In this document: one piece after another, positions 10,401 through 35,167 of the stretch
Numbering within the stretch: position 1 is the stretch's first letter
Layout of the letters: each line of letters starts with the position of its first letter
Source: Limisphaerales bacterium
Lineage (GTDB): Bacteria; Verrucomicrobiota; Verrucomicrobiia; Limisphaerales; UBA11358
Length of the DNA: 40,058 nucleotides
Assembly: GCA_003139955.1 (NCBI GenBank)
Contig: PLHK01000139.1
Location: 67,258-107,315, forward strand
Direction: 5' to 3'
Made by a program: the position numbers and the translations under genes
Notes under the pieces: generated by a model
Databases searched by the model: none
The model's input: only the letters and a program-made list of their open reading frames with translations
Told to the model about the DNA's origin: nothing

Positions 10401-11015
10401 TCAGACAGTCTGCGGCGTGCCCTGGTTGATGTATTTCTGGAGCAGCATCCGCGTGATCATGTTCAACGTCTCGAAGACGCCCTCGCATTTGTGCGCCGTG
10501 CCCGGAAAGGACGGCACCTGCACGTCGCGATTGTTGAGCAGATAATCCAAATATTCCGTCGGTGCGGCGTTCGGCAGGTCGCGCTTGTTGTATTGCAGGA
10601 CGTAGGGAATCTCCGCGAGGTTCAGTTTGAGCGAATTCAAATTATCCACGAGGTTTTGAAAGCTCTCGACGTTCTCCGGCATTTTTTCGTATTGCGAATC
10701 CGCCACAAAAACAATTCCGTCCACGCCGCGCAAAACCAGTTGCCGCGTCGTGTTGTAAATCACCTGGCCGGGCACGGTGTAAAGTTGGAACTTCGTTTTG
10801 AACCCCTTGATCGTCATCGCCTCGATCGGCAGGAAATCAAAAAACAGCGTGCGGTCGGAACTCGTCGCGAGCGAAACCAGCTTGCCCTTGTTGCCCATCG
10901 TTGTCTGGACGTGGTCGTGGACTTGCACAAGGTTCGTCGTCTTGCCGCCCATCGCCGGGCCGTAATATACGATTTTTACCTGCAACTCCTTGGTCGCTTG
11001 ATTGATGATGGCCAT
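10401..11015 (-). CDS. mglA: MglA-family polarity GTPase
   Basis: 204 aa from the ATG giving MAIINQATKEL; a longer reading lies over the upstream gene's end. The P-loop is GPAMGGKTTN (19-28), followed by the family hallmark SDRTLFFDFLP, switch II as LYTVPGQV with T-V-P-G-Q replacing the usual DxxGQ of Ras, FVADSQ, and the guanine-specificity motif YNKRDLPN. These features match MglA of Myxococcus xanthus closely. MglA-GTP defines the leading pole and recruits type IV pilus or gliding machinery. The gene sits 7 bp after a proline-rich roadblock gene and 1 bp before an MglB-like gene, then a PilT-like ATPase, which supports a role in polarised surface motility. Confidence 0.92.
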   Translation of the reverse strand: MAIINQATKELQVKIVYYGPAMGGKTTNLVQVHDHVQTTMGNKGKLVSLATSSDRTLFFDFLPIEAMTIKGFKTKFQLYTVPGQVIYNTTRQLVLRGVDGIVFVADSQYEKMPENVESFQNLVDNLNSLKLNLAEIPYVLQYNKRDLPNAAPTEYLDYLLNNRDVQVPSFPGTAHKCEGVFETLNMITRMLLQKYINQGTPQTV

Positions 11016-11022
11016 AAATTTA

Positions 11023-12702
11023 TTAAGTTTTTTTCCGGTCCAGTTCGCCTGCGAGCGCGGCGAGCTGCGCCGCCGGCAACGATTCGCCCGCGCAGCCAAA
11101 CGCCGCCAGATACACCGAGTTCACGCGGATGATCCGCCAGGGCACGTTGCCCACCGTGAAACTGACATTGTTCAGCGCGCCCATCCGCAGCTCACGCGCG
11201 CTCTGGTTCATGCGTTCAAACATCTGCGGGATGAACGCGGCGAGCGTGTCCGCGTTGAACTCTGCCGGCACTTCGCCCGCCACCCGCAAGCCATCCGGCA
11301 GCGTCACCAGCGCGCCAGCCACGCCGGGCAGCGCGACCGCGCGTGCCACCACCTCCTTGGGCGGTGTCTGGCGGCTCATGAAATCCGTCTGCGGCACCGG
11401 CGGCGGTGCAAAAATGTTTTCCTCCGCCTTCGGCGTCCCGCCGTTTTTTTCCCAGACAAAAAAATTCGAGTCGCCGGATTTTTTCTCGGCGGGCTTGGGC
11501 GCGCTGGCTGGCGGCTCCGGCGCGGCCTGCGGAAAACCAAAAAACAAATCCGGGATTTCCGCCGACACGGTGGACTTCGTCTGCGACCGCTGCGCATTTT
11601 TCTGCGCCGCAAAAAACATCGGCGCGATGATCTTCAACGGCAGGTTCAATTCCAAAGTGTCATTCGGCGACACGGGTGAACTCGGTTTGGCCAGCGTGCG
11701 TAATTGTTTCCACGTCATCGTCACGCGACCGCGTTTCAGTCCCGCGGCAACGAGTTCGCCCGCGAGCGGCACGCTGAGATTCGCGAGCGCGGAATGGGAA
11801 ATTTCATTCTTCAACTCCTCCGGCCAGTGTTCCGCCAGATCCCACAGCGAGGCAAAAATCGTCGGGGGTTCCGGTTCCGGACGTGGCACCACCGGCGTGG
11901 ATGTGGAAATGGGCGCAACGAAAATCGGAGGAATCACCGGAGTCGGTGCTGTCGGGCGAACGCCTTGTGTTGCCGGTGCCGGAGTGACGGAACGCTGAAA
12001 ATTTGGCGGCGGCGTAAAGGCGACCGGCGCGTTGCGCGCGGGCGGAACCACTGGCTGATTTATGCGCAAAGGCGGGGGCGTCGGCTTTGGGGTTGGCGGA
12101 GCGGCCAGCGGAATCTGCGCCGCAGTGGGCGTGGGCGCCTTGAGCGGTTGGGTGGTGAAGGCGACGCCGTTGCCGCGGCCGCCGAACGGCCCGTTGATGT
12201 CCTCGGCCACCTGCACTTTTGGGCCGGAGCGGCGTGCGAGCAGTGCGGGATTGAGGCGCGGCAAAATTTCGCCGAGCGGCAGGCTGATCATTTTGTTGTC
12301 AAGTTCGCCGCCGGAATTGGCAAAAATTCCGGGGGCAAGCTGGCGGAGTTCGCCGAAGGTGATTTTGACCGCACCGAACGCGAGTTGCGTCGTCACGGTT
12401 TCGACCGGAAGATTGATGGTCATGCCCGGCGGCGGGACGGTCATGGTCTTTCCGCGCAAATCCATGGGCAGGCTGGTGATGATGGGCGCGAGCGGCACGG
12501 CAATCTCATTTGCGTTCGGCGGCGGGTTTGCTGCGAGGAACGGCGGCGGCGCGGATACGGTGGCCGTCGGGGCGGCGTTGGCAACGGGCGCGCCGGCGGC
12601 GACCGGGCGCGCGGCGGGTGCGTGAACCGCCTCCGGCGGATCCATCCGCCGCAGGATGCCGCGGAGCAGCCCGGCAAATCTGGATTTGACCATGTTCGAC
12701 AT
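11023..12702 (-). CDS. Proline-rich protein with two internal repeats and a C-terminal roadblock domain
   Basis: 559 aa from the ATG giving MSNMVKSRFA. The layout is a short basic N-terminus, a Pro/Ala-rich stretch (25-65), a first ~60-residue repeat (about 94-157), a long Pro-rich linker (190-285), a second repeat (about 306-370), another linker, and a C-terminal roadblock/LC7-like domain (about 455-555). Both repeats read: a strand, a GxVxxT element, LRxLAP/LAKP, a spacer, then LPLxxIxP (ISLPLGEILPRLN and ELNLPLKIIAPMF). No signal peptide is present. As first gene of the operon with MglA, MglB and PilT homologues it may be an adaptor linking the GTPase to a partner; the linkers suggest a flexible scaffold. 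Its role is inference. Confidence 0.8.
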   Translation of the reverse strand: MSNMVKSRFAGLLRGILRRMDPPEAVHAPAARPVAAGAPVANAAPTATVSAPPPFLAANPPPNANEIAVPLAPIITSLPMDLRGKTMTVPPPGMTINLPVETVTTQLAFGAVKITFGELRQLAPGIFANSGGELDNKMISLPLGEILPRLNPALLARRSGPKVQVAEDINGPFGGRGNGVAFTTQPLKAPTPTAAQIPLAAPPTPKPTPPPLRINQPVVPPARNAPVAFTPPPNFQRSVTPAPATQGVRPTAPTPVIPPIFVAPISTSTPVVPRPEPEPPTIFASLWDLAEHWPEELKNEISHSALANLSVPLAGELVAAGLKRGRVTMTWKQLRTLAKPSSPVSPNDTLELNLPLKIIAPMFFAAQKNAQRSQTKSTVSAEIPDLFFGFPQAAPEPPASAPKPAEKKSGDSNFFVWEKNGGTPKAEENIFAPPPVPQTDFMSRQTPPKEVVARAVALPGVAGALVTLPDGLRVAGEVPAEFNADTLAAFIPQMFERMNQSARELRMGALNNVSFTVGNVPWRIIRVNSVYLAAFGCAGESLPAAQLAALAGELDRKKT

Positions 12703-14775: not shown

Positions 14776-15636
14776 ATGTTGAGCTATTTTCAAATCCTGA
14801 TCCTCGCGCTGATCCAGGGCACGGCCGAACTGCTGCCCGTCTCCAGTTCCGCCCACGTCATCGTCGCGGAAAAAATTATGGGACTGAACCCGTCCAGCCC
14901 GGAAATGACGATGCTGCTCGTCATGCTCCACACCGGCACGATGTTCGCCGTGATCGTCTATTTTTGGAAAGGCTGGCGGCGCGATTACTTTGCCTCGAAG
15001 GCGCAGCTCCAGTGGTTCGTCATCCAAATTATTCTCGCAACAATCTGTACCGCCATCGTCGGCTTGGGACTGAAAGTGCTCATCGAAAAAGTTTTCATGC
15101 GCGGCACGCCGCATGCCGAGGTGGAAAATTTGTTTAACAACCTCCCGCTCATCGCCGGCGCGCTGGCGGCGGTCGGAGTTTTAATCATCTACGCCGGCCT
15201 GCGCGAAAACAAATCGCCACGCCACGCGGAAATCCAGCCGCAACATTCCTTCTGGATCGGCCTTGTGCAGGGACTTTGCCTGCCGTTCCGCGGATTCTCG
15301 CGTTCCGGCGCGACCATTTCCACCGGGTTGATCCTAGGTTTGCCGAAACAGAAACTGGAGGAGTTCAGCTTCGCGCTCGCCGTGGTTTTGACGCCGCCGA
15401 TCATCGCCAAGGAAGCGAAGCGCCTGCTGCAAGACCACGTCTTGAGCGATCATCAATCCGCACTGCACCTTTTTTTGCCGGGACTGGTTGGGATGATTTT
15501 CAGTTTTGCCGCCGGCTTGCTCGCGTTGAAATGGCTGTCGCGCTGGCTGGAAGGCGGACGCTGGAAATTTTTTGGCTTCTACTGTCTCATCGCCGCTGCG
15601 GGCGTGCTGTTCATCCACTGGAAACTGCCAAATTAA
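14776..15636 (+). CDS. uppP: Undecaprenyl-diphosphatase UppP (BacA family)
   Basis: 286 aa polytopic inner-membrane protein with about 7-8 hydrophobic segments. The first conserved motif is QGTAELLPVSSSAH (14-27), matching the family's (E/Q)GxTE.LPVSS.GH with Glu18. The second is LPFRGFSRSGATIS, matching the PG.SRSG.T motif except that the Pro is Arg. These line the active site that dephosphorylates undecaprenyl pyrophosphate to recycle the lipid carrier for peptidoglycan and surface polysaccharides; the family gives low-level bacitracin resistance. The gene is transcribed alone, with a likely promoter directly before the ATG. Identification is secure; the Arg substitution is worth noting. 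Confidence 0.93.
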   Translation: MLSYFQILILALIQGTAELLPVSSSAHVIVAEKIMGLNPSSPEMTMLLVMLHTGTMFAVIVYFWKGWRRDYFASKAQLQWFVIQIILATICTAIVGLGLKVLIEKVFMRGTPHAEVENLFNNLPLIAGALAAVGVLIIYAGLRENKSPRHAEIQPQHSFWIGLVQGLCLPFRGFSRSGATISTGLILGLPKQKLEEFSFALAVVLTPPIIAKEAKRLLQDHVLSDHQSALHLFLPGLVGMIFSFAAGLLALKWLSRWLEGGRWKFFGFYCLIAAAGVLFIHWKLPN

Positions 15637-31007: not shown

Positions 31008-31616
31008 ATGGAAATGGCTTCCAATTCGCCGCTCGATTCGTTGTGGACGGAATACGGTCGCGCGTTCGTGTCGTGGGACGACCTCACGCTGGCGCGCTGG
31101 CTCGCGCAGACGCTCGGCCAGCTCGAAGGCCGCGCCTGGCGGCTGTCGCATCCGCTCGTCGGCGCGTATCGCCTCGCCGCGCAGGTCGCGCATGGCCGGC
31201 AAATCTGGCACAAGCGCCTCGCCACCGCGCCCGCCGCCTACGCGACTTCGCCGTGCTGCCGCGCGCCGTTCCTGCCGTTGCTCACGCGCGATGTGCGCAC
31301 GGAGGGTTTGATCTGCCAGCATTGCAACGAAATCCTGGTGCCGTTCGACGAACTGCCCGCTGAGCTGCGCGAAGTTCTCGAACCGTGGGCGAAAAATTAC
31401 GAGCCGGTCCACGCCGTCGCGCACTGGGACGACCGCCAGCGCAAGCGCACGGGCAATTACGATGCGGCCTACGAAAACGCGGCGCAGTCGGCGGAAAAAC
31501 TTTTGTCCATCGCCGGTGCTGAACTCGCGCCGAAGTTGCTGGACAATTACGCGGCGGTGATCTGGGAAGATCAGGACGAATGTCTCGAAGTGCGACCGGA
31601 GGATGTGGCGGTTTGA
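31008..31616 (+). CDS. Protein with a C-terminal-half zinc ribbon, unknown
   Basis: 202 aa from the first ATG (a second ATG two codons later is possible). The N-terminal half is helical and Trp/Leu-rich (TLARWLAQTLGQLEGRAW). The middle has CC...CxxC: SPCCRAPFLPL followed by GLICQHCNEILVPFDELP, which looks like a zinc ribbon. The C-terminal part is helical and acidic (WEDQDECLEVRPEDVAV). No signal peptide is present, so it is cytoplasmic. I do not recognise a named family; it reads like a lineage-specific conserved protein. It is followed by a palindromic element that fills the space to the next gene. Confidence 0.7.
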   Translation: MEMASNSPLDSLWTEYGRAFVSWDDLTLARWLAQTLGQLEGRAWRLSHPLVGAYRLAAQVAHGRQIWHKRLATAPAAYATSPCCRAPFLPLLTRDVRTEGLICQHCNEILVPFDELPAELREVLEPWAKNYEPVHAVAHWDDRQRKRTGNYDAAYENAAQSAEKLLSIAGAELAPKLLDNYAAVIWEDQDECLEVRPEDVAV

Positions 31617-31698
31617 ATTTACGATTTTGGAATTACGATTTACGAGCCGCTCCCAACATGGACATGGCGCGTAAATCGTATATCGTGAATCGAAAATT
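31616..31698. repeat. 83-bp palindromic element, 29-bp arms
   Basis: Two 29-bp arms (31616-31644 and 31670-31698) match in 22 of 29 positions as inverted repeats, with the inner 10 bp (ACGATTTACG / CGTAAATCGT) perfect, around a 25-bp GC-rich loop. The arms are built from ATTTACG/ATTTTGG-like heptads. It occupies almost the whole gap between two genes. It could fold as a hairpin in RNA or DNA; there is no U-tract, so it is not a standard terminator. A non-autonomous repeat element is likely. Confidence 0.6.
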
Positions 31699-31701
31699 CT
31701 G

Positions 31702-32397
31702 ATGAAGAAGATTTTGAAATGGTTTTTCGGCGCGGTGCTGCTGGTCGTGGTGCTGGCGGTGGTTTTGCTGTTGTCGCTGGACACGATTCTGCGCGTCATC
31801 GCGGAAAACCGCATCCGCGCGCAGACCGGCATGGACGCGGAGATCGGGAAATTTCATGTCGGCCTGCTGGAGCCGGTGGTGAGCATCGAAAACCTGCGGC
31901 TCTACAATCCGCCGGCCTTCGGCGGCACGCCGTTTCTGGACATTCGCGAAATCCATGTCGAATACGACCGCGCCGCGCTGGTGAAAAACCAGATTCACAT
32001 CACGCTCATGCGCTTCAATCTCGGCGAACTCGACATCGTGCGGAACGAAGCCGGCCAGACAAATCTATTTTCGCTCGGCGTCGCGCTGCCCGCCAAAAAC
32101 GCGCCGGGTGGCAACATCGGGCTAAAGGAATTCAAGCAGCGGACGGGTCTGGATTTTCGGGGCGTGGATGTGCTAAACGTGTCCGTCGGCACGGCGCGGT
32201 TCATTGACCTGAAAGACCCCAGCCATGATCGCGCGCAGAACATCGGCATTGATAATCTCGTCATGAAAAATGTGAAGACGGAAGCAGATTTGGCTGGCCT
32301 GGCCGCGCTCGTGGCGCTGCGCGGCAGCGAAGTTTTCGGCGTTTTGGTTGACCAGAAGAATTCGGGCGCGGAAGTCCAAAAGCTGCTGGGCTTTTGA
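31702..32397 (+). CDS. AsmA-like protein, N-terminal anchored
   Basis: 231 aa. An N-terminal membrane anchor (MKKILKWFFGAVLLVVVLAV) is followed by AENRIRAQTGMDAEIGKFHVGLLEPVVSIENLRLYNP, the usual opening of AsmA/DUF748 proteins (N.LR.TG..V.I....). Then FLDIREIHVEYDRAALVKNQIHI continues the pattern of a beta-rich groove. Larger AsmA-family members carry phospholipids across the periplasm; this one is short, so it covers only the start of such a fold. It would lie in the periplasm, anchored to the inner membrane. It ends just before the proA promoter. Confidence 0.65.
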   Translation: MKKILKWFFGAVLLVVVLAVVLLLSLDTILRVIAENRIRAQTGMDAEIGKFHVGLLEPVVSIENLRLYNPPAFGGTPFLDIREIHVEYDRAALVKNQIHITLMRFNLGELDIVRNEAGQTNLFSLGVALPAKNAPGGNIGLKEFKQRTGLDFRGVDVLNVSVGTARFIDLKDPSHDRAQNIGIDNLVMKNVKTEADLAGLAALVALRGSEVFGVLVDQKNSGAEVQKLLGF

Positions 32398-32480: not shown

Positions 32481-33767
32481 ATGCATTTGACGGAACAGAT
32501 GACGCGACTGGCGAAACAAGCCAAGGCCGCGTCGCGCGAACTTGCCCAACTGACGACGGCGGAGAAAAATTCCTGCCTGCTCGCGATGGCCGCTGCGTCG
32601 GAGAAAAATGCCGACGCCATCAAGCAAGCGAACGCGCTGGATCTGGAAGTCGGCGCGAAATTAAATCTGTCCGCCGCGATGCTCGACCGGCTCAAGCTCG
32701 ACGACCAAAGAATTTCCGCGATGGCCAAAGGTTTGCGCGAAGTCGCGGCACTGCCCGATCCCGTCGGAAAAATTCTCGACGAGCGCGTCCGCCCGAACGG
32801 TCTCAAGCTGCAAAAAATTTCCACGCCCATCGGCGTCGTCGTCATCATTTACGAATCGCGCCCGAACGTGACGGCGGACGCGGCGAGCCTGTGCTTCAAA
32901 TCCGGCAACACCACGATTCTGCGCGGCGGCAAGGAGGCGTTGAACTCCAATCTGCTCATCGCGCAGACGATGATTGACGCCGGCAAAAAAACGCTCCCGA
33001 ATTTTCCCGAGCACGCGATCCAAGTCGTGCCGACAACCGACCGCGAGGCCGTTCCCATTTTGCTTTCGCTCACGCAATACGTTGATCTGTGCATGCCGCG
33101 CGGCGGCGAAAGCTTGATCCGCGCCGTCGCGGACTGCTCGAAAGTTCCCGTGATCAAACATTACAAAGGCGTCTGCCACGTTTTTGTGGACGCCGACGCC
33201 GATTTGAAAATGGCCGAAGAAATCGCGCTGAACGCGAAAGTGCAGCGCCCCGCCGTTTGCAACGCGATGGAGACGCTGCTCGTGGACAAAGCCATCGCGG
33301 AAAACTTTTTGCCGGTCATCGGCGGAAAACTTTTTGAGAAGCACGTCGAGATTCGCGCCGACGGTCCGAGCCGCGACATTTTGAATTCACAATTAAAAAT
33401 TAAAAATTCAAAACTGAAGGCCGTTGCTGAGCAGGATTATTTCACCGAATACGGCGATTACATCTTGAACGTGCGCATCGTGGACGGCGTGCGCGCGGCG
33501 ATTGACCACATCAATTTTTACGGCTCGGCGCACTCGGACAGCATCATTACGAAGAACGAGGCGCACGCGAAACAATTTCTCGCCGAGGTGGATTCGGCGA
33601 CGGTTTATTGGAACGCCTCGACGCGCTTCACCGACGGCGGCGAGTTCGGCATGGGCGCGGAGATCGGCATCAGCACCGACAAAATCGGCGCGCGCGGCCC
33701 GATGGGTTTGGACGAATTGACCAGCTACAAATGGCTCGGTATCGGCAATGGGCAAATCCGGACTTAA
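32481..33767 (+). CDS. proA: Gamma-glutamyl phosphate reductase ProA
   Basis: 428 aa from the ATG giving MHLTEQMTRLAK; a longer in-frame reading covers the promoter and is excluded. Visible marks are IGVVVIIYESRPNVTADAA, ILRGGKEALNSN, LCMPRGGESLI, the catalytic Cys in RPAVCNAMETLL, and FTDGGEFGMGAEIGISTDK near the C-terminus. ProA reduces gamma-glutamyl phosphate with NADPH in proline synthesis, in the cytosol. The segment near residues 300-315 (DILNSQLKIKNSKLKA) is encoded by an A/T-rich heptad-type palindrome and looks like an inserted repeat within the gene. proB is not adjacent. Confidence 0.95.
   Translation: MHLTEQMTRLAKQAKAASRELAQLTTAEKNSCLLAMAAASEKNADAIKQANALDLEVGAKLNLSAAMLDRLKLDDQRISAMAKGLREVAALPDPVGKILDERVRPNGLKLQKISTPIGVVVIIYESRPNVTADAASLCFKSGNTTILRGGKEALNSNLLIAQTMIDAGKKTLPNFPEHAIQVVPTTDREAVPILLSLTQYVDLCMPRGGESLIRAVADCSKVPVIKHYKGVCHVFVDADADLKMAEEIALNAKVQRPAVCNAMETLLVDKAIAENFLPVIGGKLFEKHVEIRADGPSRDILNSQLKIKNSKLKAVAEQDYFTEYGDYILNVRIVDGVRAAIDHINFYGSAHSDSIITKNEAHAKQFLAEVDSATVYWNASTRFTDGGEFGMGAEIGISTDKIGARGPMGLDELTSYKWLGIGNGQIRT
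33379..33413. repeat. AT-rich palindromic heptad element inside proA
   Basis: TTTTGAATT at the left edge and AATTCAAAA at the right edge are perfect 9-bp inverted arms around a core of AATTAAA units spaced by 7 bp. The base composition contrasts sharply with the rest of proA. It is read in frame as a short basic/Asn-rich insertion located between the catalytic region and the VDGVRAAIDHINFYG segment. Confidence 0.6.
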
Positions 33768-33844: not shown

Positions 33845-35167
33845 ATGAGTCCTGCCGAACAAGCCAAATTCATCCGCGACGCGATTCCGTCTGGCGGACT
33901 TTTTGCCGGGTTGGAATGGAAAATTTCGCCGACGCCGTTTCCGCTCGGTGAAAATCTAGCGAAGGAAATCGAATCGCTCGGCCGCGTGCTGCTGCAATTC
34001 TACCGCGCGACCAATCTGCTTTACCGCAAAAGCGTTGAAGGCAAACAGCCGGAATGGGTCGCGCGCTGGCTGGACTTGGGCAAGCCGCGCGAACTGATTG
34101 AGCTTCAGCGTTCAGTCGCTTTCAAAAACGAAATCCCGCGCGTGATCCGTCCCGATATTTTGCTGACGGAAAATGGTTTCAGCATCACGGAACTGGATTC
34201 CGTTCCCGGCGGCATCGGATTGACCGGTTGGTTAAATCAAACCTATGCGGCTATCAACTATCAACCATCAACCATCAACTTGCTTGGCGGCGCGGACGGG
34301 ATGATACGCGGATTTGAAAGTATCTTTGGCGATGCCAAACAAGTGCAGATTATCGTTTCCGAAGAGGCGAAAACGTATCGGCCGGAAATGGAATGGCTTG
34401 CCGAACAGATGAAGAATTCAGAATTCAGAATTCAGAATTCAGAATTTATGGACTTCAAAGATGGCGATTCGGTTTATCGGTTTTTTGAATTGTTCGATTT
34501 GCCGAATGTTCCCAACGCCAAAAGAATTTTTGAACTCGCGCGCGACAAGAAAATTCGCGTCACGCCGCCGCCGAAACCGATGTTCGAGGAAAAAATGTTG
34601 TTCGCGCTTTTGTGGAACCGGAACCTGCATAATTTCTGGCGGCAGGAACTCGGCGAAAGTTTTCTGGCGCGGCTGAAAAAAATCATTCCCTGCACCTGGC
34701 TCGTTGACCCGACGCCGCTGCCGCCGCACGCGGCGATTCCTGAGTTGAACCTGACGGACTGGCAGCAACTCAAAACGCTTTCGCAAAAGGAGCGCGATTT
34801 GATTTTGAAAGTTTCGGGCTTTTCGGAAAATGCGTGGGGGGCGCGCGGCGTTTTTCTCGGCAGCGATCTGTCGCAGGCGGACTGGAGCGCGGCGGTGGAT
34901 GCGGCGCTGAAAAATTTTGAGACGTCGCCGAGCGTGTTGCAGCGTTTTGAAAAGCCGAAGACGGTCGAAGCCGGCTGGTTTGATTTTGCCAAGAATGAAA
35001 TTGTGCCGATGAAGGGCCGCGTGCGGCTGTGTCCGTATTATTTTGTCGCCGGCGACGGCGATGCCGCGCGTCCCCAGCTCGGCGGAATTCTGGCGACGAT
35101 TGTTCCCGCCGATAAAAAAATCGTCCACGGCATGGCCGACGCGGTGCTCGCACCGTGTTCGGTTTGA
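33845..35167 (+). CDS. Unknown 440-aa protein, possibly ATP-grasp-like, carrying heptad repeats
   Basis: 440 aa, no signal peptide. The segment RPDILLTENGFSITELDSVPGG (about 101-122, split here as RPDILLTENG and FSITELDSVPGG) resembles the metal/phosphate-binding strand of circularly permuted ATP-grasp proteins (RPD...TEDG....E.N..PGG), and WGARGVFLGSDLSQADW further on could supply the other lobe. This is tentative. Two stretches, YQPSTIN around residue 140 and NSEFRIQNSEF around 190-200, are translated heptad repeats, inserted in frame. Despite this the frame is open throughout, so the protein is probably made. Function is unknown. Confidence 0.6.
   Translation: MSPAEQAKFIRDAIPSGGLFAGLEWKISPTPFPLGENLAKEIESLGRVLLQFYRATNLLYRKSVEGKQPEWVARWLDLGKPRELIELQRSVAFKNEIPRVIRPDILLTENGFSITELDSVPGGIGLTGWLNQTYAAINYQPSTINLLGGADGMIRGFESIFGDAKQVQIIVSEEAKTYRPEMEWLAEQMKNSEFRIQNSEFMDFKDGDSVYRFFELFDLPNVPNAKRIFELARDKKIRVTPPPKPMFEEKMLFALLWNRNLHNFWRQELGESFLARLKKIIPCTWLVDPTPLPPHAAIPELNLTDWQQLKTLSQKERDLILKVSGFSENAWGARGVFLGSDLSQADWSAAVDAALKNFETSPSVLQRFEKPKTVEAGWFDFAKNEIVPMKGRVRLCPYYFVAGDGDAARPQLGGILATIVPADKKIVHGMADAVLAPCSV
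34251..34278. repeat. Four tandem heptads CTATCAA/CCATCAA inside a coding sequence
   Basis: CTATCAA twice, then CCATCAA twice, directly in tandem. They are translated within the 440-aa protein without breaking its frame. Confidence 0.8.
34413..34447. repeat. Five tandem heptads AGAATTC inside a coding sequence
   Basis: Four perfect AGAATTC units and a fifth, AGAATTT, total 35 bp. They are translated as KNSEFRIQNSEF-type sequence in the same 440-aa protein. Confidence 0.85.

Follow-up and report, generated by a model that had tools for sequence, protein, structure and literature searches.

Heptanucleotide Repeats and Related Short Elements in Bacteria

A survey of heptanucleotide simple sequence repeats in prokaryotes was published in 2007, reportedly by Mrazek and colleagues, and two further kinds of short sequence serve for comparison. 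In cyanobacteria, short tandemly repeated heptanucleotides, called STRR, are intergenic; the Rickettsia palindromic elements form sequence families that occur as short in-frame inserts in many unrelated genes. As related in the available parts of two later papers, the 2007 survey found period 7 to be a favoured unit length with a scattered phylogenetic distribution, and the over-abundance of heptanucleotides in bacteria has long been noted, those parts offering no agreed explanation of why it is seven (PMC4679880, PMC4692102). The first of them adds that units whose length is a multiple of three are likeliest inside genes, and that DNA polymerase may, on the suggestion of the earlier survey, contact a stretch of seven bases (PMC4679880). 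Lineage-specific cases come from excerpts of the same two sources: the marine Beggiatoaceae carry a single unit, TAACTGA, mainly in intergenic DNA upstream of start codons, which gives a stop when translated (PMC4679880), and Xanthomonas GGGAATC and related Nostoc repeats are heptameric, G-quadruplex-forming and in some cases intragenic, with three tandem heptanucleotides reported from Calothrix (PMC4692102). In the open-licence literature, no account was found of heptads that stand in frame at orthologous gene sites and turn over their unit, and among the matches listed for 7-bp repeats in Planctomycetes or Verrucomicrobia, repeat terms were absent.

The Locus, Its Host and the Two Arrays

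The window, i.e., the whole stretch of 40,058 nucleotides that was analysed, belongs to a 91.7% complete genome (G000) of Verrucomicrobia subdivision 3 (Limisphaerales), from a group of environmental bacteria that are uncultured. A sequence-only reading of it had pointed to two different period-7 arrays inside the gene of a 440-aa protein, with the frame staying open. Both arrays are borne out by the sequence and by TRF, and the ORF runs uninterrupted across them, the distance alone needing correction, since the coordinates leave 132 bases between the arrays and not 134 (Table 1). The gene was matched in 56 of 59 genomes, its own included, and 68 loci with named relatives lie mostly in MAGs of Verrucomicrobia subdivision 3/Limisphaerales. 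One of these genomes (G007) has two copies, on contigs C104 and C188 (L013 and L087), the former being a duplicate of the copy in G028, and contamination of that MAG is possible.

No Pfam or NCBIfam family matches the protein at E <= 0.001. An AlphaFold2 model built on 42 aligned homologues (pLDDT 87.7) has human glutathione synthetase as its best Foldseek match (8fbz_A; E 2.7e-13, 12% identity, probability 1.00, TM 0.66 by query), and the other matches are glutathione synthetases and glutathionylspermidine-synthase-like ligases. The protein is thus predicted to have a glutathione-synthetase-like ATP-grasp fold, with a putative ligase function. In this model, array 1 encodes residues ~136-146, mostly in a loop that joins helix 124-136 to helix 152-159; residue 145 forms an isolated bridge. 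Array 2 encodes KNSEFRIQNSEF (190-201), across the beta-strand 193-198, F194 and F201 being nearly invariant across the 42 homologues.

Both arrays are beyond chance. The lag-7 score of array 2 (27) is reached by none of 2000 within-gene synonymous-codon shuffles, whose maximum is 21, and that of array 1 (19) is reached anywhere in the gene by seven of 2000, while codon-order shuffles of the gene (n=2000) do not exceed 10.

Table 1. Features of the window bearing on the heptad arrays (positions count from the first base of the window).
Feature	Position	Strand	Basis
Intergenic heptad array, ATTTACG	31617..31645	+	TRF, 72% matches, score 37
Intergenic heptad array, CGTAAAT	31670..31697	+	TRF, 76% matches, score 35
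proA (glutamate-5-semialdehyde dehydrogenase)	32484..33767	+	NCBIfam NF001221 equivalog, E 6.3e-174
Imperfect in-frame heptad array in proA, AATTCAA/AATTAAA type	33384..33413	+	Lag-7 score 14
440-aa protein gene	33845..35167	+	ORF, conserved throughout the order; predicted glutathione-synthetase-like ATP-grasp fold
Heptad array 1, CTATCAA/CCATCAA, CTATCAACTATCAACCATCAACCATCAACT	34251..34280	+	TRF: period 7, 4.3 copies, 91% matches
Heptad array 2, AGAATTC, perfect	34413..34446	+	TRF: period 7, 4.9 copies, 100%

Three further arrays lie upstream in the window. The one in proA falls within the peptide LNSQLKIKNSK. The ATTTACG array follows the stop codon that closes the ORF 31008-31616 without a gap, and CGTAAAT, its inverted partner, ends just before the ORF at 31702; the imperfect pair thus fills the gap between two ORFs, with a hairpin possible. 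An inverted pair of the same units recurs in L068, at 14840-14869 and 14895-14922. As judged by eye, a heptad-like array is likewise succeeded in the same coding segment by its inverted partner in six orthologues (L319, L322, L328, L281, L290, L269), where a hairpin could form.

Period 7 in the Host Genome

The count of heptads in coding and non-coding DNA that the sequence-only reading had proposed for the whole genome is available for 533,712 bases of the host genome, some of them N, including all of L151 (2,833 bases). In this sample, TRF reports 24 arrays of period 7, against one in all for periods 2-6 and two for period 8, and a third-order Markov copy of the sample yields no period-7 array. 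Longer periods are also present, with 7, 10 and 20 arrays at periods 10, 11 and 12 (2, 4 and 6 in the Markov copy). A lag scan, with runs made of N excluded, gives a similar picture at scores of at least 12, there being 24 arrays at lag 7 and 0, 5, 3 and 2 at lags 5, 6, 8 and 9, respectively. Tandem 7-base units are therefore above chance, which places these arrays among the heptanucleotide simple sequence repeats; a class of short period-7 arrays exists in this genome, and period 7 stands out among the short periods. The class is not built on one sequence, as the 24 TRF arrays fall into 17 unit classes.

Heptads inside genes, presented at first as unusual, turn out to be ordinary here: 17 of the 24 lag-scan arrays lie inside predicted ORFs and seven outside, in a sample of which 83.5% is predicted to be coding by a home-made codon score. 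When only exact arrays of at least three units are considered, six of seven at lag 7 are inside predicted ORFs, and exact runs of the same kind at lag 8 (two) and lag 10 (five) are all outside. Nor is the 440-aa gene alone in holding more than one array, since a predicted ORF of L154 (10787-12481, minus strand) contains three different heptad arrays, at 10929-10959, 11897-11924 and 12047-12072. In a TRF sample of relatives, made up of twenty 20-kb stretches from twenty of them (400 kb), the excess of period 7 is much weaker: only four period-7 arrays are present, all within the genus, while periods 8 and 12 have three and 11.

The arrays are also restricted in size. In the host genome they span 19-37 bp, only three of the 24 being 19-24 bp, and among 143 pooled distinct lag-7 arrays, a set weighted by many orthologues of seven ascertained sites, most measure 25-34 bp, 57 being 31-33 bp and eight exceeding 34 bp. 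A stepwise slippage ladder should leave many intermediates of about two units. At scores of 8-11, corresponding to about 2-2.6 exact units, the host sample has 21 arrays at lag 7 and 28, 85, 20 and 47 at lags 5, 6, 8 and 9; arrays of about two units are thus not in excess at lag 7.

Unit Turnover at Orthologous Sites

Seven sites in six genes (the 440-aa gene, proA and four others), picked for having an array in the host genome, were compared across 33 genomes. A period-7 array is present in 65 of 195 regions, or in 58 of 188 when the ascertained host genome is set aside, and the same regions have no array at lags 4-6 or 8-12. This count covers genomes inside the tree (thus leaving out G016, G023, G035 and G037), and only in-frame, collinear pieces were joined for it. 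Another comparison leaves out the loci L189, L241, L265 and L272, whose joined matches are not a multiple of 3, and some of its regions are short of flanks. Cutting the regions from protein alignments makes every region length a multiple of 3. G024 occupies an odd position in the genome tree.

At the seven sites, 7, 8, 9, 4, 5, 6 and 5 different units are found, some calls resting on weak arrays (score 10). Where both genomes of a pair 85-95% identical have an array at a site, they share the unit in 33 cases and differ in it in 138, the pairs not being independent; an array in just one genome of the pair accounts for another 411 cases. The same gene positions thus carry different units across species, often with unchanged length, and regular as well as degenerate arrays are present.

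The proA site illustrates this pattern. Its orthologues have eight other units, mostly with the region length unchanged, and 75 bp is the length of 11 of the 14 regions with an array. Four units in six genomes, TCGGCAA (G001), TCCGCAA (G005, G009), TCAAAAC (G003, G017) and TCGAAAA (G031), share boundaries equal to within one base (18-50/51), and in G026, G032, G021, G000 and G024 one or both boundaries deviate at equal region length.

In the 440-aa gene, relatives have at site 1 no insert, different heptads or palindromic inserts, and at site 2 different heptads in the same register as array 2. The site-2 units include AATTCAG, AATTCAA, CTTCAAC, GTTCAAG and TTCACGA-like sequences, with AAGTGCG in L096; the total of 18 site-2 arrays includes one duplicate, because the L013 copy of G007 is counted, and the other copy of that genome (L087) has the same site-2 unit. 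Non-heptad, partly palindromic-looking in-frame inserts were seen at site 1 of L026, L033, L096, L029 and L113, and in a tolerant segment of L227, peptide examples being SEGGVPRRPNQDG and GQASSLSS...DGQDARPT.

Dispersal of the arrays, sometimes as inverted pairs, by a transposase such as Y1/RAYT would liken them to REP elements or Rickettsia palindromic elements. The inverted heptad pairs at 31617/31670 of the window and 14840/14895 of L068 speak for such copying, as do the other palindromic-looking inserts that occupy the same loops and the recurrence of AATCCGC arrays in some genomes. Exact arrays of this unit occur in about seven places in G001, in eight in G027 and in none in the host genome; they are found in 15 of 35 genomes of the genus (reversed control, 0) and in three of 288 across the phylum (reversed control, 1/288). 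Some units are therefore favoured or have spread. Against this stands the absence of any Y1_Tnp (PF01797) match in the 91.7% complete host genome, where a REP/RAYT system would have its transposase, although 31 of the 35 genus genomes have one. The units are moreover local. Within one genome, units at different sites agree in only two of 90 pairs; between genomes, they agree in 22 of 1814 pairs at different sites and in 40 of 374 at the same site. The diversity of unit classes in the host points the same way, and so does the site-2 unit of L096, which as three exact units occurs in a single place of its 4.3-Mb genome, at coordinates fitting site 2. Instead of one sequence family at many gene sites, as for the Rickettsia elements, each site has four to nine units. 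Transposase-driven dispersal was thus rejected as the general account and is unlikely to be the source of the arrays, even if the recurrence of AATCCGC keeps it alive.

Reading Frame and Protein Constraint

A seven-base unit changes the frame with copy number, and the sequence-only reading had proposed that gain or loss of units could switch the protein. The first half of this proposal is correct: a change of -2, -1, +1 or +2 units in silico alters the reading frame and truncates the product to 150-281 aa, while the loss or gain of three units keeps the frame, giving 433 or 447 aa, respectively. The switch itself is another matter. Between species, no internal stop is found among the listed matches of the 440-aa gene (56 of 59 genomes), and none of the compared site regions has a stop inside. 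Stops or frame breaks do exist elsewhere: L153g has them at residues 14, ~47-77 and ~213, L064g at ~330 and proA at 123; these breaks in a few orthologues are not at the arrays, since the latter correspond to residues 265-275, 126-137 and 301-311, respectively. The same array pattern is also shared by proA and four other genes, and the predicted fold of the 440-aa protein is of a metabolic ligase type. Phase variation, in which unit gain and loss would turn this protein on and off, was accordingly rejected as the main reading of the gene, on the missing stops at the sites between species, and is very improbable.

The sequence-only reading had named, as what would refute it, homologues that lack the repeats and show the same residues by conservation. 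This holds for one of the two sites: at site 2, F-x-[VIL]-x4-F is present in most homologues with and without repeats; at site 1, the segment is simply shorter in several relatives. The site-2 residues also speak for a further account, in which a peptide pattern seven residues long is selected and the DNA repeat is a by-product. Against protein selection as the sole cause, the DNA period is hardly ever restored when these peptides are recoded with synonymous codons: the observed score is reached in 0 of 200 recodings for 64 of 68 array regions, and in at most two of 200 for the other four. Furthermore, seven of the 24 period-7 arrays of the host sample lie outside predicted genes, and the L096 unit has no TTC core. 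The synonymous-codon test thus refutes selection on the protein alone, which hardly any weight can be given, and supports a process acting at the DNA level.

How the Arrays May Arise

Taken together, the arrays look like the rewriting of tolerant protein segments rather than an on/off switch. The reading preferred here, at a probability of roughly 0.55, is that heptad arrays of ~4-5 units (~30 bp) are occasionally created or rewritten locally in such segments, are selected for frame and then decay. We infer the generating step: misaligned replication or repair synthesis would copy a 7-base step several times, producing a small patch. Selection would then retain those products in which the reading frame and the local structure are intact, which at site 2 would mean keeping the F-x-[VIL]-x4-F strand, and point mutation would erode the array up to its loss or its next rewriting. 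The protein would thereby have a block of about 10 residues changed at once, with no on/off switch. The several AATCCGC places in G001 and G027 count against rewriting, as this unit could have spread within the genome.

The main rival is the concerted change of old arrays. Each site would then have an ancestral array of constant length, in which single-base changes come to affect every unit, through slippage events paired in opposite directions (forward and backward) or through out-of-register conversion, so that the unit drifts and the array is not remade. The proA site fits, with its equal boundaries and length and with units one or few substitutions apart, and units are related in register more often than by chance, the in-phase alignment being the best in 9.75 of 21 unit pairs in proA (chance 3) and in seven of seven at site 2 across three length classes (chance 1). 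Selection on the protein for the site-2 strand can, however, also bring units in phase. On visual inspection, L004, L005 and L012 also look similar in register in their site-1 segments. In contrast, the 81-bp regions of site 1 have none of three unit pairs best in phase (1.33 of three for those of 111 bp), and degenerate TTCACGA-like arrays persist at site 2 in several species (G031, G032, G022 and others). Since these stay degenerate, homogenisation is not continuous at this site. Single-unit slips would break the frame en route, and in many relatives these sites are free of arrays. Concerted evolution can thus be held as a tentative explanation, with the balance of probability against it.

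A narrower form of rewriting deserves mention, namely that patches of ~30 bp, also within genes, are overwritten in a single step by ~four and a half 7-base copies, through a dedicated or an intrinsic DNA-synthesis event operating in the genus and repeatedly at the same tolerant positions. We regard this as possible but rather doubtful; if true, it would amount to a built-in replacement of ten or so residues without a frame break.

Meaning and Comparison with Known Systems

Local creation and rewriting of arrays, as preferred above, suggests that proteins may change by the exchange of residue blocks while the frame, and often the length, stays fixed. With its many orthologous arrays, limited array size, fast unit turnover and preference for period 7, the genus allows the origin of this period to be put to the test. 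There is a warning as well, in that such segments in predicted proteins are products of lineage-specific repeats and not of conserved function.

When set beside the described systems, the arrays share with the cyanobacterial heptads, to which the sequence-only reading had compared them, the tandem heptanucleotide structure, yet the host is verrucomicrobial and the comparison holds as an analogy only. The cyanobacterial units are few and mainly intergenic, whereas here the 24 TRF arrays comprise 17 unit classes, and predicted ORFs contain 17 of the 24 arrays of the lag scan. The single TAACTGA unit of the Beggiatoaceae differs in that many units occur here and give no stops in the frame used. 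The Xanthomonas and Nostoc repeats are alike in being heptameric and in part located in genes, but they are made of G-quadruplex units, and the available part of their account contains no unit turnover at orthologous gene sites (PMC4692102). The present arrays resemble the Rickettsia palindromic elements as short in-frame inserts in unrelated genes, although they vary in sequence from site to site and have only the period in common. Finally, they agree with the repeats of the 2007 survey in period 7 and in a scattered phylogeny, and depart from them in that a unit whose length is no multiple of three stands in frame, at fixed gene positions and with turnover of the unit between species.
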